In this document: in pieces, positions 26,855 through 39,228 of the stretch
How positions within the stretch are numbered: position 1 is the first letter of the stretch
How the letters are laid out: the number at the start of each line of letters is the position of its first letter
From: Motilibacter aurantiacus
Lineage (GTDB): Bacteria > Actinomycetota > Actinomycetes > Motilibacterales > Motilibacteraceae
Reading direction: 5' to 3'
Assembly (NCBI RefSeq): GCF_011250645.1
Contig: NZ_JAANNO010000004.1
Coordinates: 1-64,000, forward strand
DNA: 64,000 nucleotides
Notes under the pieces: generated by a model
Databases searched by the model: none
Told to the model about the DNA's origin: nothing
Seen by the model: the letters and a program-made list of their open reading frames with translations, nothing else
Translations under genes and position numbers: made by a program

Positions 26855-26880
26855 GTACTCGGCCGTCAGGTTGGTGACAC
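26855..26880. repeat. IS481 left terminal inverted repeat
   Basis: It begins TGTACTCGGCC and ends GGTGACA. The final codons and stop of the transposase gene lie inside this repeat. Confidence 0.85.
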
Positions 26881-27846
26881 GGGTAGGCGGCTGGCGGGGA
26901 CGGCGCCCTTGAGTGCGTGGTGTGCTCGTTCATTGTTGTAGTGCTCGAGCCAGGGGACGAGGGCGGCGGTGCGTTCGGCGTTGCTGGTGAAGACCTGCCG
27001 GTAGGCCCATTCGGCTTGCAGGGTGCGGTTGAAGCGTTCGACGTTGCCGTTCTGCCAGGGGCAGTGCGGCTTGATGAGGACGTGCCTTGCGCCGAGGTCG
27101 TGCAGCACCGACGTCATGTCGGCGCTGCGGGTGTAGGACCAGTGGTTGTCTGTCATGACCCGCTCGACGGTGGTGATTCCGGCGGCGCGGAAGGAGGCGG
27201 CGGCGCGGGCCAGGAACGCGGCGCAGGTCGAGCCCTTCTCGTCGGGCAGGACTTCGGAGTAGGCGAGCCGGGAGTGGTCGTCGACGGCGGAGTGGACGTA
27301 GTCGAACCCGATCCGGGCCTTCTTCTTCGCGGCGGTGCTGCCCATCTGGCGGCCGTGGGCGCGCCAGCCGCCACCGTCGGGGATCCGGCCGATCTTCTTG
27401 ACGTCCATGTGGATCAGCTCGCCCGGCCGGGCGCGCTCGTAGCGGACCGCGGTGGTCTTCGAGGCCCGGATCCGGTCCCCGGTCAACGGGTCGCACTCGG
27501 CCAGCCGTGGCACGTCGTGCCGGCGCAGGACCCGGGTCACGGTGCGCTCAGGGACCCCGCACTCGGCGCCGAGCCAGGCCGGGCCGCGCCGGTGCTGAGC
27601 GCGGGCAGCGAGCACGCGCTGCTCGGCCTCAGCGCTGGTCCGGGTCGGGGTCGAGTGAGGGCGCGAGGACCGGTCCAACAGGCCGGCCGGTCCTTCGGCG
27701 TCGTAGCGGGCCACCCAGCGGTGGGCGCACTGGCGGGAGACGCCGAGCTCCTTGGCCACGTGCGCGACGGGGCGCCCGTCGGATCGGACGCGCCGCACCA
27801 GCAGGAGCCGCCCATGAACGGTCAGGCGGGCGTTAGCGTGGGCCAC
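26866..27846 (-). CDS. IS481 family transposase
   Basis: 326 residues from the GTG at 27846 (MAHANARLTVHGRLLLVRR), preceded by CGGAGG. An N-terminal helix-turn-helix (AHVAKELGVSRQCAHRWVAR, then YDAEGPAGLLDRSSRP) is followed by the RNase H-like DDE core: the Asp of AVDDHSRLAY, the Asp of MTDNHWSY and the Glu of NGNVERFNRTL. MDVKKIGRIPDGGGW and the ending HYNNERAHHALKG are typical of IS481. No frameshift or stop interrupts it. The gene is in the same direction as the upstream sulfite-oxidase/PPTase operon, so read-through transcripts can enter it. Confidence 0.93.
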   Translation of the reverse strand: MAHANARLTVHGRLLLVRRVRSDGRPVAHVAKELGVSRQCAHRWVARYDAEGPAGLLDRSSRPHSTPTRTSAEAEQRVLAARAQHRRGPAWLGAECGVPERTVTRVLRRHDVPRLAECDPLTGDRIRASKTTAVRYERARPGELIHMDVKKIGRIPDGGGWRAHGRQMGSTAAKKKARIGFDYVHSAVDDHSRLAYSEVLPDEKGSTCAAFLARAAASFRAAGITTVERVMTDNHWSYTRSADMTSVLHDLGARHVLIKPHCPWQNGNVERFNRTLQAEWAYRQVFTSNAERTAALVPWLEHYNNERAHHALKGAVPASRLPVSPT

Positions 27847-27905
27847 GAAGACCTCCGGGTTTGGTGACTGACTTCGCAATCACCACCGCACCCGGAGGTC
27901 TTCGT
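27845..27905 (-). promoter_or_regulatory. Hairpin that sequesters the transposase start
   Basis: A perfect 16-bp inverted repeat (27845-27860 and 27890-27905) is separated by 29 nt. In an RNA made from outside the element, the proximal arm, containing the CGGAGG ribosome site and part of the GTG start codon, would be paired. A transcript starting between the arms would stay open. This matches the known protection of IS elements against read-through expression. Confidence 0.6.
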
Positions 27906-30350: not shown

Positions 30351-31175
30351 ATGCAGACCTACTCCCGGGACGGCCTCGTCTTCCCGGTGCGCGACCAGGG
30401 CCCGCCCGACGGCGAGGTAGCCGTCCTGCTGCACGGCTTCCCGCAGGACGCGTCGGCCTTCGACGCCGTCGCCGCCCGGCTGCACGAGACGGGGCTGCGC
30501 ACGCTCACGCCGACCCAGCGCGGCTATGCGGCAGGCGCGCAGCCGCGGGGCCGGCGGGCGTACGCCCTGCAGGAGACGACCGCCGACGTGCTCGCCCTGC
30601 TGGGCGCGGCGGGCGTGGAGAGGGCGCACGTGGTCGGGCACGACTGGGGCGCCGGCCCGGCGTGGGCGCTCGGGGCCGCGCACCCGAGCCGCGTCGCCTC
30701 GCTGACCATCCTGTCGACGCCCCACCCCGCGGCGATGGCCCGCTCGCTGGTGCGCAGCACGCAGGCGCTGCGCTCGGCCTACATGGCCTTCTTCCAGCTG
30801 CCCGGGCTGCCGGAGCTGGTGCTGCGCCGCCGGCTGGCGCCGCTGCTCCGGGCGTCCGGCCTGCCCGCCGAGCACGTGCGCCGCTACACGGACGTCCTGC
30901 GGTCCGACGGGGTCGCGACCGGAGCGCTCAACTGGTACCGCGGGATCCCGTTCTCGTCCCGCCCGCTGCTCGGCCCCTCCCGCGTCCCCACGACCTATGT
31001 CTGGGGGCGGCACGACCCCGCCCTCGGCCGCGCCGCGGCCGAGCGGACCGGCGCCTTCGTCGAGGCTGCGTACGCGTTCGTCGAGCTCGACGCCGGGCAC
31101 TGGCTGCCGGAGACGCGCCCGGGCGACGTGGCCGCAGCCGTGACCGCCCGGGTGCGGGAGGCGGGCCGGGCGTGA
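30351..31175 (+). CDS. Alpha/beta hydrolase (epoxide-hydrolase-like)
   Basis: 274 residues. The oxyanion segment LLHGFPQDASAFD and the nucleophile elbow VVGHDWGAGPAWALG, with an Asp nucleophile in the HDWGA context, place it with epoxide hydrolases and haloalkane dehalogenases rather than serine esterases. The acid is likely in WGRHDPALG and the catalytic His in LDAGHWLPETRP. It is cytoplasmic. It stands alone on the plus strand, and its 3' end lies 4 nt from the end of the convergent LLANP-repeat peptide frame. Confidence 0.9.
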   Translation: MQTYSRDGLVFPVRDQGPPDGEVAVLLHGFPQDASAFDAVAARLHETGLRTLTPTQRGYAAGAQPRGRRAYALQETTADVLALLGAAGVERAHVVGHDWGAGPAWALGAAHPSRVASLTILSTPHPAAMARSLVRSTQALRSAYMAFFQLPGLPELVLRRRLAPLLRASGLPAEHVRRYTDVLRSDGVATGALNWYRGIPFSSRPLLGPSRVPTTYVWGRHDPALGRAAAERTGAFVEAAYAFVELDAGHWLPETRPGDVAAAVTARVREAGRA

Positions 31176-31179
31176 GGCG

Positions 31180-31299
31180 CTAGAGGCGGACGCGCCGGGG
31201 GTTGGCGAGCAGTGGGTTGGCGAGCAGTGGGTTGGCGAGCAGGGTGTCCATGCCGTACGTCACCGAGACCTCGTCGGCGCGCTCGACCGTCGTCTCCAC
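31180..31299 (-). CDS. 39-residue peptide with three LLANP repeats (RiPP-precursor-like)
   Basis: A GTG start at 31299 with GGAGGGAG (31306-31313) 6-13 nt upstream opens a 39-codon frame ending in TAG at 31180. The leader-like first half is acidic (VETTVERADEVSVTYGMDT), then LLANP occurs three times in tandem, followed by a basic end RRVRL. An acidic N-part followed by a repetitive C-part recalls ribosomally made, modified peptide precursors. No maturation enzyme is adjacent: the neighbours are a hydrolase gene (convergent) and a MarR regulator (divergent). I do not recognise the family, and it could be a small regulatory or structural peptide. Confidence 0.5.
   Translation of the reverse strand: METTVERADEVSVTYGMDTLLANPLLANPLLANPRRVRL
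31200..31244. repeat. Three tandem 15-bp repeats inside the peptide gene
   Basis: GGTTGGCGAGCAGTG occurs at 31200-31214 and 31215-31229 and, with one change, at 31230-31244. Each unit encodes one LLANP on the minus strand. The near-identity at DNA level suggests recent repeat expansion. Confidence 0.9.
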
Positions 31300-31496
31300 G
31301 GACCGCTCCCTCCGTCGTCTGCCTGCTGGCCGGAGCCTGCGCGGCGCCTCCTGGGGGCGTCGCAGGGACAGCCTTCCCCGCCTCTGTTGCCGGCAGGTGA
31401 CGTGCGTGTTCAGATCGGGCAACCGGGCGGCGGCGCCCATCCGGACCGCCTCCTCTGATGAGCGACCGAACGGTGGCTGAACGCTCAATCACCGAC

Positions 31497-31502
31497 TACC
31501 AT
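31497..31502 (+). promoter_or_regulatory. Leaderless -10 box for MarR gene
   Basis: TACCAT lies 6 nt before the ATG at 31509. No ribosome site precedes that ATG. Confidence 0.45.
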
Positions 31503-31508
31503 GACGTC

Positions 31509-32030
31509 ATGTCCGAGACGGCGTTGCGATCCCCCCGCTGGCTCTCCGCGGACGAGCAGCGCGCCTGGCGGGCGTACCTGCAGGCGACGCGGTTGCTCGC
31601 CGAGCACCTCGAGGCCCAGCTGCAGCGCGACTCCGGGATGCCGCACGCCTACTACGAGATCCTCGTCCAGCTGTCCGAGACCCCGGACCGGCGGCTGCGC
31701 ATGAGCGAGCTGGCCGAGCGCACCCGCTCCTCGCGCAGCCGGCTCTCGCACGCGGTGGCCCGGCTGGAGGACGCCGGTTGGGTGCAGCGCACCAACTGCG
31801 CGGAGGACCGCCGGGGCGCGTTCGCCGAGCTGACCGACGCCGGGTTCGCCGCGCTCGCCGACGCCGCGCCCGGCCACGTCGAGGCCGTGCGGGCCTACCT
31901 GGTGGACCGGCTCACCCCGGCGCAGGTCGTCCAGCTGCGCGAGATCAGCGAGGCGGTCCTCGCCGGGCTCGACGGGCAGACGGCCGCCGACGGCGTCGGC
32001 CCGGGATGCCCGCATCCCTCCGACGGCTGA
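31509..32030 (+). CDS. MarR-family transcriptional regulator
   Basis: 173 residues from the ATG at 31509; an in-frame ATG at 31458 would add 17 residues but lies upstream of the promoter-like TACCAT. Helices W-RAYLQATRLLAEHLEAQL form the dimer part. The winged helix is seen in RLRMSELAERTRSSRSRLSH and AVARLEDAGWVQRTNCAEDR, with the wing RRGAFAELTDAG. MarR proteins usually repress a divergent gene and respond to phenolic or oxidising signals. The divergent neighbour here is the LLANP-repeat peptide, its most likely target. Confidence 0.9.
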   Translation: MSETALRSPRWLSADEQRAWRAYLQATRLLAEHLEAQLQRDSGMPHAYYEILVQLSETPDRRLRMSELAERTRSSRSRLSHAVARLEDAGWVQRTNCAEDRRGAFAELTDAGFAALADAAPGHVEAVRAYLVDRLTPAQVVQLREISEAVLAGLDGQTAADGVGPGCPHPSDG

Positions 32031-37734: not shown

Positions 37735-39228
37735 TCAGCCCTTGCCCCCTCCCTTGCCCCCTCCCTTGCCCCCTCCCTTGCCCCCTCCCTTGCCCTTCGC
37801 CTGGCCGTTGCCCTTGCCCTTGCCGCGCTCCCCGCCGGCTGCCCGCTGCTCGCGCCGCTCGGCCTTGGCGGCCCGGTCGCGCTGCTTCTCCGCCTGCCGA
37901 CGCGCCTGCTCGGCGGCCTTGTCCGCCCGTTGCCCCCGCGCCCGGGCGGGTGGCCGCGCTGATCCGGCCTCCCGTCGCGTCGCGGGCGGCGCTGTCGTCC
38001 GGGGTGCCGTCGTCGCTGGCGGCCTGGTGGAGCGAGGGCTCCGCGATGCGGCCGGGCTGCCGGCCGCGACGGCTGGTGCCGAAGCCGGCCGGGCGGCCAC
38101 GCCCGGGACGGACGGCGCGGTGATGGCGCCCGGCGATGTCGGGGCTGTCGTCGGGGATGTCGTGGGGGCGCCCGCAGCCACCCCCGGCGCCGGGCCCCCG
38201 TCCAGCAGCACGGGGGCCACGAAGGCGGCGCCTCCCAGCAGCGGGACGAGAGCGGCGGCGGCCCAGGCGAGGCGGTGGCGCGGGCCAGCGGCCGGCGGGC
38301 GCGCAGCGTCTGCCGGAAGGAGCGGGGCAGGCACGACCGTGGTCGGCGCGGGCGGGACGGCCGCTGCCCGCGCCTGGGCCACGGGGGCCGCCGCTGCACC
38401 GACGGGGTCGGCGCCCTCCGCGAGAGGCTCCAGCGCGGCGCGGACGGCGTCCGGAGCGGGCCGAGCCGCGGGGTCCTTGGCGAGCAGGGCGCCCACGACG
38501 GGGGCCAGCAGGGGTGACGTGGTCGGCGCCGGGTCCTGCTCCAGTGCAGCGTGGACGATCTCCACCTCGGAGGCGCCGGAGAACGGCGCACGTCCCTCCG
38601 CCGCGAAGTAGAGCGTCGCCCCCAGGCCCCAGAGGTCGCCGGCCGCTGTCGCCGCCTGCCCGCGGGCCCGCTCCGGAGCGAGGTACGCCGCCGAGCCGAC
38701 GATCGTCCCGGTCGCCGTCAGCGCCGCCTGCCCGGGCCCCAGCGCGATCCCGAAATCGGTGATGACCGCCCGTCCCTCGACGAGCATGACGTTCGCCGGC
38801 TTCACGTCGCGGTGCAGCACGCCCGCGGCATGGATCGCCTCGAGGGCCTCGGCGAGGTCCCGGCCGACCCGGGCCACCTCGGCCGGTGGCAGCGCCCCGT
38901 CCGCCTGCACCCGCTGGTGCAGCGACTGACCGTCCAGGAGCTCCATGACCAGCCAGAGCTGCCCCGGAGCGGGCTCGAGCACGTCGAAGACCGTGACGGC
39001 GTACGGGCTGCGCACGCCCGCCGCCGCCCGCGCCTCGGCGAGCGCCCGCGCGTGTTCCAGGCCCCCGTCCGAGCCACCCGGCCCCTCGGCGAGCCGGACC
39101 TGCTTCAGGGCCACGCGCCGCCCCAGCAGCTCGTCGCGCGCGACCCAGACCGTCCCGCCGCCGCCCCGGCCGGCGACGTCGAGCAACGTGTAGCGCGAGC
39201 CGATCGACGAAGGGCCGCCGCCGGTCAC
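37735..39228 (-). CDS. Membrane-anchored Ser/Thr protein kinase with Lys/Gly-repeat tail
   Basis: 497 residues from GTG 39228. A Hanks-type kinase domain covers about 13-270: glycine loop GRGGGGTVW, ATP-binding Lys42 (VALKQV), catalytic HRDVKPANV, metal-binding DFGIA and APERARGQ. A Pro/Ala juxtamembrane region and one transmembrane helix (LAWAAAALVPLLGGAAFVAPVLL, shortened: LVPLLGGAAFV) follow. The outer part is Pro/Thr/Ala-rich, then highly charged, and ends in repeated GGGK units. No PASTA or other sensor domain is present. The start overlaps the stop of the DUF2231-Rieske gene (GTGA), so the two are co-expressed. Confidence 0.9.
   Translation of the reverse strand: MTGGGPSSIGSRYTLLDVAGRGGGGTVWVARDELLGRRVALKQVRLAEGPGGSDGGLEHARALAEARAAAGVRSPYAVTVFDVLEPAPGQLWLVMELLDGQSLHQRVQADGALPPAEVARVGRDLAEALEAIHAAGVLHRDVKPANVMLVEGRAVITDFGIALGPGQAALTATGTIVGSAAYLAPERARGQAATAAGDLWGLGATLYFAAEGRAPFSGASEVEIVHAALEQDPAPTTSPLLAPVVGALLAKDPAARPAPDAVRAALEPLAEGADPVGAAAAPVAQARAAAVPPAPTTVVPAPLLPADAARPPAAGPRHRLAWAAAALVPLLGGAAFVAPVLLDGGPAPGVAAGAPTTSPTTAPTSPGAITAPSVPGVAARPASAPAVAAGSPAASRSPRSTRPPATTAPRTTAPPATRREAGSARPPARARGQRADKAAEQARRQAEKQRDRAAKAERREQRAAGGERGKGKGNGQAKGKGGGKGGGKGGGKGGGKG
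37739..37786. repeat. Four 12-bp tandem repeats at the kinase 3' end
   Basis: CCCTTGCCCCCT is repeated four times without change, and a fifth partial copy follows. On the minus strand each unit encodes Lys-Gly-Gly-Gly. Such a perfect array is prone to slippage. Confidence 0.9.

Follow-up and report, generated by a model that had tools for sequence, protein, structure and literature searches.

A 39-codon reading frame in the window (the whole 64,000-nucleotide stretch of Motilibacter aurantiacus DNA analyzed here) encodes a small protein from a group marked by the C-terminal motif GMLANPxRVRL. Judged by sequence comparison, the proteins that share this tail are a real, previously undescribed family with 16 members in two actinomycete families. 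The best explanation, which we put a little short of an even chance, is that the gene is free-standing and encodes a cytosolic microprotein of about 26 to 50 residues that works through its conserved basic tail.

The peptide gene in Motilibacter

The peptide gene lies between a convergent hydrolase gene and a divergent regulator, with these features:

31299..31180, minus strand: peptide ORF METTVERADEVSVTYGMDTLLANPLLANPLLANPRRVRL, 39 amino acids, GTG start at 31299 and TAG stop at 31180 (translation, M. deserti orthologue, family profile)
31305..31312, minus strand: Shine-Dalgarno-like GGAGGGAG 5' of the peptide GTG, also kept in M. deserti
31180..31212, minus strand: conserved C-terminal tail LLANPRRVRL-stop (alignments and profile match)
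31199..31242, minus strand: 15-bp tandem array of 2.9 copies encoding LLANP three times (TRF, 100% match)
31382..31410, minus strand: 29-nt block, AACACGCACGTCACCTGCCGGCAACAG plus two flanking bases, within the peptide gene's upstream region or 5' UTR (alignment)
31477..31488, no strand assigned: predicted MarR operator CTGAACGCTCAA in the marR promoter region, TTGA-N4-TCAR as read on the minus strand
31509..32030, plus strand: divergent MarR-family regulator (Pfam MarR_2; M. deserti orthologue 84% identical)
30351..31175, plus strand: alpha/beta hydrolase gene, converging on the peptide gene (Pfam Abhydrolase_1; syntenic in M. deserti)

The initial annotation had described a 39-codon frame with a good ribosome site, an acidic first half, and a basic end, divergent from a MarR gene, and each element of that description holds: GGAGGGAG lies just 5' of the GTG, the N-terminal part carries a charge of -4 and the tail +3, and the neighbor matches Pfam MarR_2. 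Its suggestion of a membrane-active peptide found no support, as a reading of the peptide sequence revealed neither a signal peptide nor a membrane segment; cysteine is likewise absent.

An orthologue of 32 codons, METTTERADEVSGGYGSSSYDGMLANPRRVRL, occupies the syntenic position in Motilibacter deserti E257 (genome G001; loci L004 and L051), where the order of S15 peptidase, marR, divergent peptide, and convergent hydrolase is the same as in the window. In the DNA alignment of the two species, ACGGAGGGAGC, the Shine-Dalgarno sequence and the GTG start are identical. Five codons of the ten-codon tail differ, four synonymously and one with an amino acid change, and the 16-codon N-terminal block has two synonymous and three amino acid differences. 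Conservation of the frame, its start, and a tail with mostly synonymous changes implies that the frame is under selection. The initial annotation had named loss of the frame in close relatives as grounds for rejecting the peptide; M. deserti keeps the frame, the GTG, and the ribosome site. On the strength of this comparison, the peptide ORF is a real, conserved gene.

We also considered, and disfavored, the possibility that the frame is open by chance or forms the C-terminal end of a longer protein starting at TTG 31488 (102 amino acids; 97 in M. deserti). Upstream of the GTG the frame stays open in the two species, and each of the two indels has a length divisible by three. Between an upstream conserved block and the GTG, however, the amino acids differ; the block itself matches at every base, without the wobble changes of coding DNA; and not only are the Shine-Dalgarno sequence and GTG conserved but relatives begin equally close to the tail, all of which makes this reading highly improbable.

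The 29-nt block, 80 to 110 nt upstream of the peptide start, is identical at every base in the two Motilibacter genomes, while the flanking noncoding DNA has diverged. With up to two mismatches allowed, its core was found in only 4 of 394 genomes of the class, and the exact copy solely in the two Motilibacter. It is possibly an operator, promoter, or leader element; an Rfam search of positions 31150 to 31550 returned nothing up to an E value of 5.

The divergent MarR regulator

The best-conserved start of marR is 31509. The pattern TTGA-N4-TCAR has a single match in the window, where 0.33 would be expected. Two sites of the form TTGA-N4-TCAA precede the closest marR relative in each of two other members of the Motilibacter family (G002 and G003), and the window and M. 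deserti each have one such site before marR, with one end base changed. The predicted operator adjoins marR and lies about 178 nt before the peptide GTG, a placement that suggests autoregulation of marR; control of the peptide gene by the divergent MarR is possible.

The same region bears on a signaling role, in which the peptide, whole or in part, would be exported or would act on the divergent MarR protein. The divergent arrangement in both Motilibacter genomes and the predicted operator between the two genes are consistent with such a link. We nevertheless consider it very unlikely, given that marR adjoins the peptide only in Motilibacter, that members from the second family have no marR at hand, that the closest marR relatives in G002 and G003 are divergent from other genes (VOC and YceI), and that the peptide has no signal sequence. 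The peptide was absent beside the marR relatives of G002, G003, and G004.

The tripled LLANP array

The three LLANP units from near-identical 15-bp repeats that the initial annotation had pointed out are present; the third unit is unlike the others solely at its final base, a wobble position. Such near-identity points to recent slippage. A count of exact arrays with 2.8 or more copies gave five across 400 kb of the genome's contig C1 and two in the window; at five per 400 kb, the LLANP array is real yet of a common slippage kind. The strongest tandem repeat of the window is another, a 12-bp array, CCCTTGCCCCCT, at 37739 to 37795 (4.8 copies, 100% match), which is low-complexity Gly/Lys-rich coding sequence, judging by its M. 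deserti counterpart.

The LLANP/LANP motif occurs three times in the window genome and once in M. deserti and in all other family members. As read from this distribution, the array arose when the LANP portion of the conserved tail was duplicated in this lineage alone, a recent and local copying accident. A constant leader with a varying repeat number, as the annotation had anticipated, is what the window and M. deserti display (three copies against one). In a repeated-core RiPP precursor, relatives would retain several repeat copies, with variation, behind a constant leader; here one genome has three copies and the rest have one. The annotation's proposal of such a precursor is not supported, because the other members are single-copy, the repeats look young, no maturation gene is common to the loci, and the N-terminal part is variable outside Motilibacter.

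A wider small-protein family

Outside the genus we found 14 more small ORFs, all in one other actinomycete family (f27), which is probably Nocardioidaceae. A two-sequence profile gave a weak match in G155 (f27), MKKTEVTETEQAESASAAFPEGMLANPTRVRI-stop, and a degenerate DNA pattern covering the tail and stop, applied to 394 genomes, matched only G000, G001, and G155, with no matches for the reversed control. Widened profiles added members in G627, G380, G202, and G145, and G155 proved to hold a second one. The G155 peptide is flanked by an acyl-CoA dehydrogenase gene, and examination of the same neighborhood in 67 genomes of the G155 genus yielded six further members with the tail at the stop plus two longer forms.

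Twelve of the 14 terminate in a sequence of the type GM[LVI]A[NS]PxR[TV][RQ][LIV]-stop. The two longer forms, L110 (G592) and L112 (G546), read ...VANPRRTTWTG[YF]AK...DRLP.. and also have a leaderless-type promoter; they may be a fuller version of the family. Since they run on past the motif with WTG[YF]AK, a free C terminus is not essential in all members. The window peptide itself carries the family tail pattern, [LVI]A[NS]PxR[VT][RQ][LIV], at its C terminus (LLANPRRVRL-stop).

A profile built from the 12 short f27 members alone and run against 1,273 frames ranked the M. deserti peptide first (E value of 3.4e-6) and the window peptide second, a test that is not fully independent, as the family search started from the tail and the matches were motif selected. 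The window peptide's own score was weak (E values of 0.43 with the full-length model and 0.0043 with a tail-only model), and the link between Motilibacter and f27 is carried mainly by the 10- to 12-residue tail. Outside Motilibacter it is the N-terminal part that varies, not the tail; this part is mostly acidic, but non-acidic in 4 of the 14, and contains no conserved leader motif.

No Pfam or NCBIfam model matched the family, the latter at E values up to 10 for any member. A PDB sequence search returned nothing relevant, and the plasmid and viral collections held no family match. Weak profile matches within long frames (L014 to L034) were read singly and set aside, as was a same-family match, L008 (GGMLANPRRFRYAAQ), whose sequence runs on past the motif.

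Expression signals

A TANNNT box ends 6 to 7 nt before the ATG in 13 of the 14 f27 members, compared with none of 125 other short ATG frames at the same loci, a pattern that fits a signature of leaderless mRNAs. Such mRNAs are common in mycobacteria (PMC5741613), and the f27 members resemble the leaderless small proteins of actinobacteria mapped there (PMC5741613) as short ORFs apparently transcribed from the start codon. The GMLANPxRVRL family is set apart by a tail motif of its own, by the lack of a Pfam or NCBIfam model, and by its two Motilibacter members, in which a ribosome site and GTG stand in place of TANNNT and ATG. The box was counted as a frequent, not a defining, family trait.

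Gene neighborhoods and alternative roles

The f27 locus sits between FadE-like and Hsa-type genes, surroundings that read, from their sequences, as a steroid catabolism cluster; no steroid genes were seen near the Motilibacter peptide. The direct neighbors in f27 are a cupin gene in two genomes, an FAD oxidoreductase gene in two, a TIGR03886 radical SAM gene in one, and convergent genes in the rest. Because neighbors differ between loci, no common partner is visible. In the window, as the initial annotation had it, no modifying enzyme adjoins the peptide: neither a modifying-enzyme gene nor an export gene is among its immediate neighbors. The radical SAM motif CxxxCxxC has only two matches in the window, both in frames without other radical SAM signs. 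Farther away in the window, a transposase-like ORF that looks like an integrase-type IS element (26866 to 27879) lies between genes for an amidohydrolase and a phosphopantetheinyl-transferase-like protein; no such ORF was seen in L005, the syntenic stretch of M. deserti.

These neighborhoods bear most directly on a RiPP-like or cofactor-like precursor, in which the conserved tail would be a core matured by an enzyme encoded elsewhere. The size, the variable N-terminal part, and the conserved C-terminal stretch up to the stop would fit, as would the position of the peptide gene upstream of a cupin gene in G155 and G627 and, in G202 (L117), adjoining and preceding a TIGR03886 gene of the spore-photoproduct-lyase family (607 bits). 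We know of no function for TIGR03886, and none of the papers searched names it. A GC-rich inverted repeat separates the peptide and radical SAM genes in G202, no neighbor is common to all loci, the repeats are confined to the window genome, no NCBIfam RiPP precursor family matches, and the N-terminal part outside Motilibacter is without a leader motif, so that we regard such a precursor as unlikely, if well worth considering. A more specific form, in which the conserved tail would serve as core for a new peptide-derived natural product or cofactor of actinobacteria, with maturation in trans (for example, by a spore-photoproduct-lyase-like radical SAM enzyme such as TIGR03886) and with the gene lying, in relatives, beside steroid catabolism genes, is a long shot.

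The precursors of mycofactocin and PQQ are matured by their own enzymes. MftA and PqqA, the respective precursors, are roughly equal in size to the present peptides and also have a conserved C-terminal part. In contrast to them, the family has no NCBIfam match (the precursor model of MftA matched no member at E values up to 10), no maturase common to the loci, no cysteine, and no conserved leader outside Motilibacter.

A regulatory nascent peptide, whose tail would stall the ribosome at the stop codon and so control a downstream gene, would account for conservation that reaches the stop codon and for short leaderless ORFs, and a codirectional gene does lie within 200 nt downstream in G155, G627, and G202. 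In Motilibacter and at most other loci, however, the next gene is convergent, leaving nothing for a nascent peptide to attenuate; in the window, the convergent hydrolase means that no gene follows the peptide on its own strand. Leader-peptide attenuation was accordingly disfavored, and we judge stalling to be decidedly unlikely.

Compared by eye, the tail LANPTRVRI resembles the helix LANPTRLRIL of ArsR-type winged-helix regulators. No Pfam helix-turn-helix match was obtained for the family even at an E value of 10, and because the protein stops after this segment it has no DNA-binding domain, unlike ArsR-type regulators.

A proposed cytosolic microprotein

The microprotein explanation draws its sequence-level support from the kept frame, from GMLANPxRVRL kept up to the stop, and from the leaderless-type promoters of relatives. 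Since the following gene is convergent in the window, in M. deserti, and at most of the remaining loci, what matters is likely the product itself and not its translation. We propose that the variable N-terminal part would serve as a flexible spacer and that the short basic tail would dock on a cellular partner (a protein, the ribosome, or a nucleic acid) and modulate it. Slippage in the window genome would have tripled the LLANP part just before the final intact copy, lengthening the spacer and leaving one full tail. A two-sequence AlphaFold2 model was weak (pLDDT of 67, pTM of 0.23), its short helices being predicted with low confidence.

The repeat is a sideshow here, an example of how the most eye-catching feature of a gene can matter least. 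Tiny proteins are mostly missed by annotation, and this family now has a tail motif to work with. That makes the GMLANPxRVRL family a tangible target for ribosome profiling, mass spectrometry, and pull-down.
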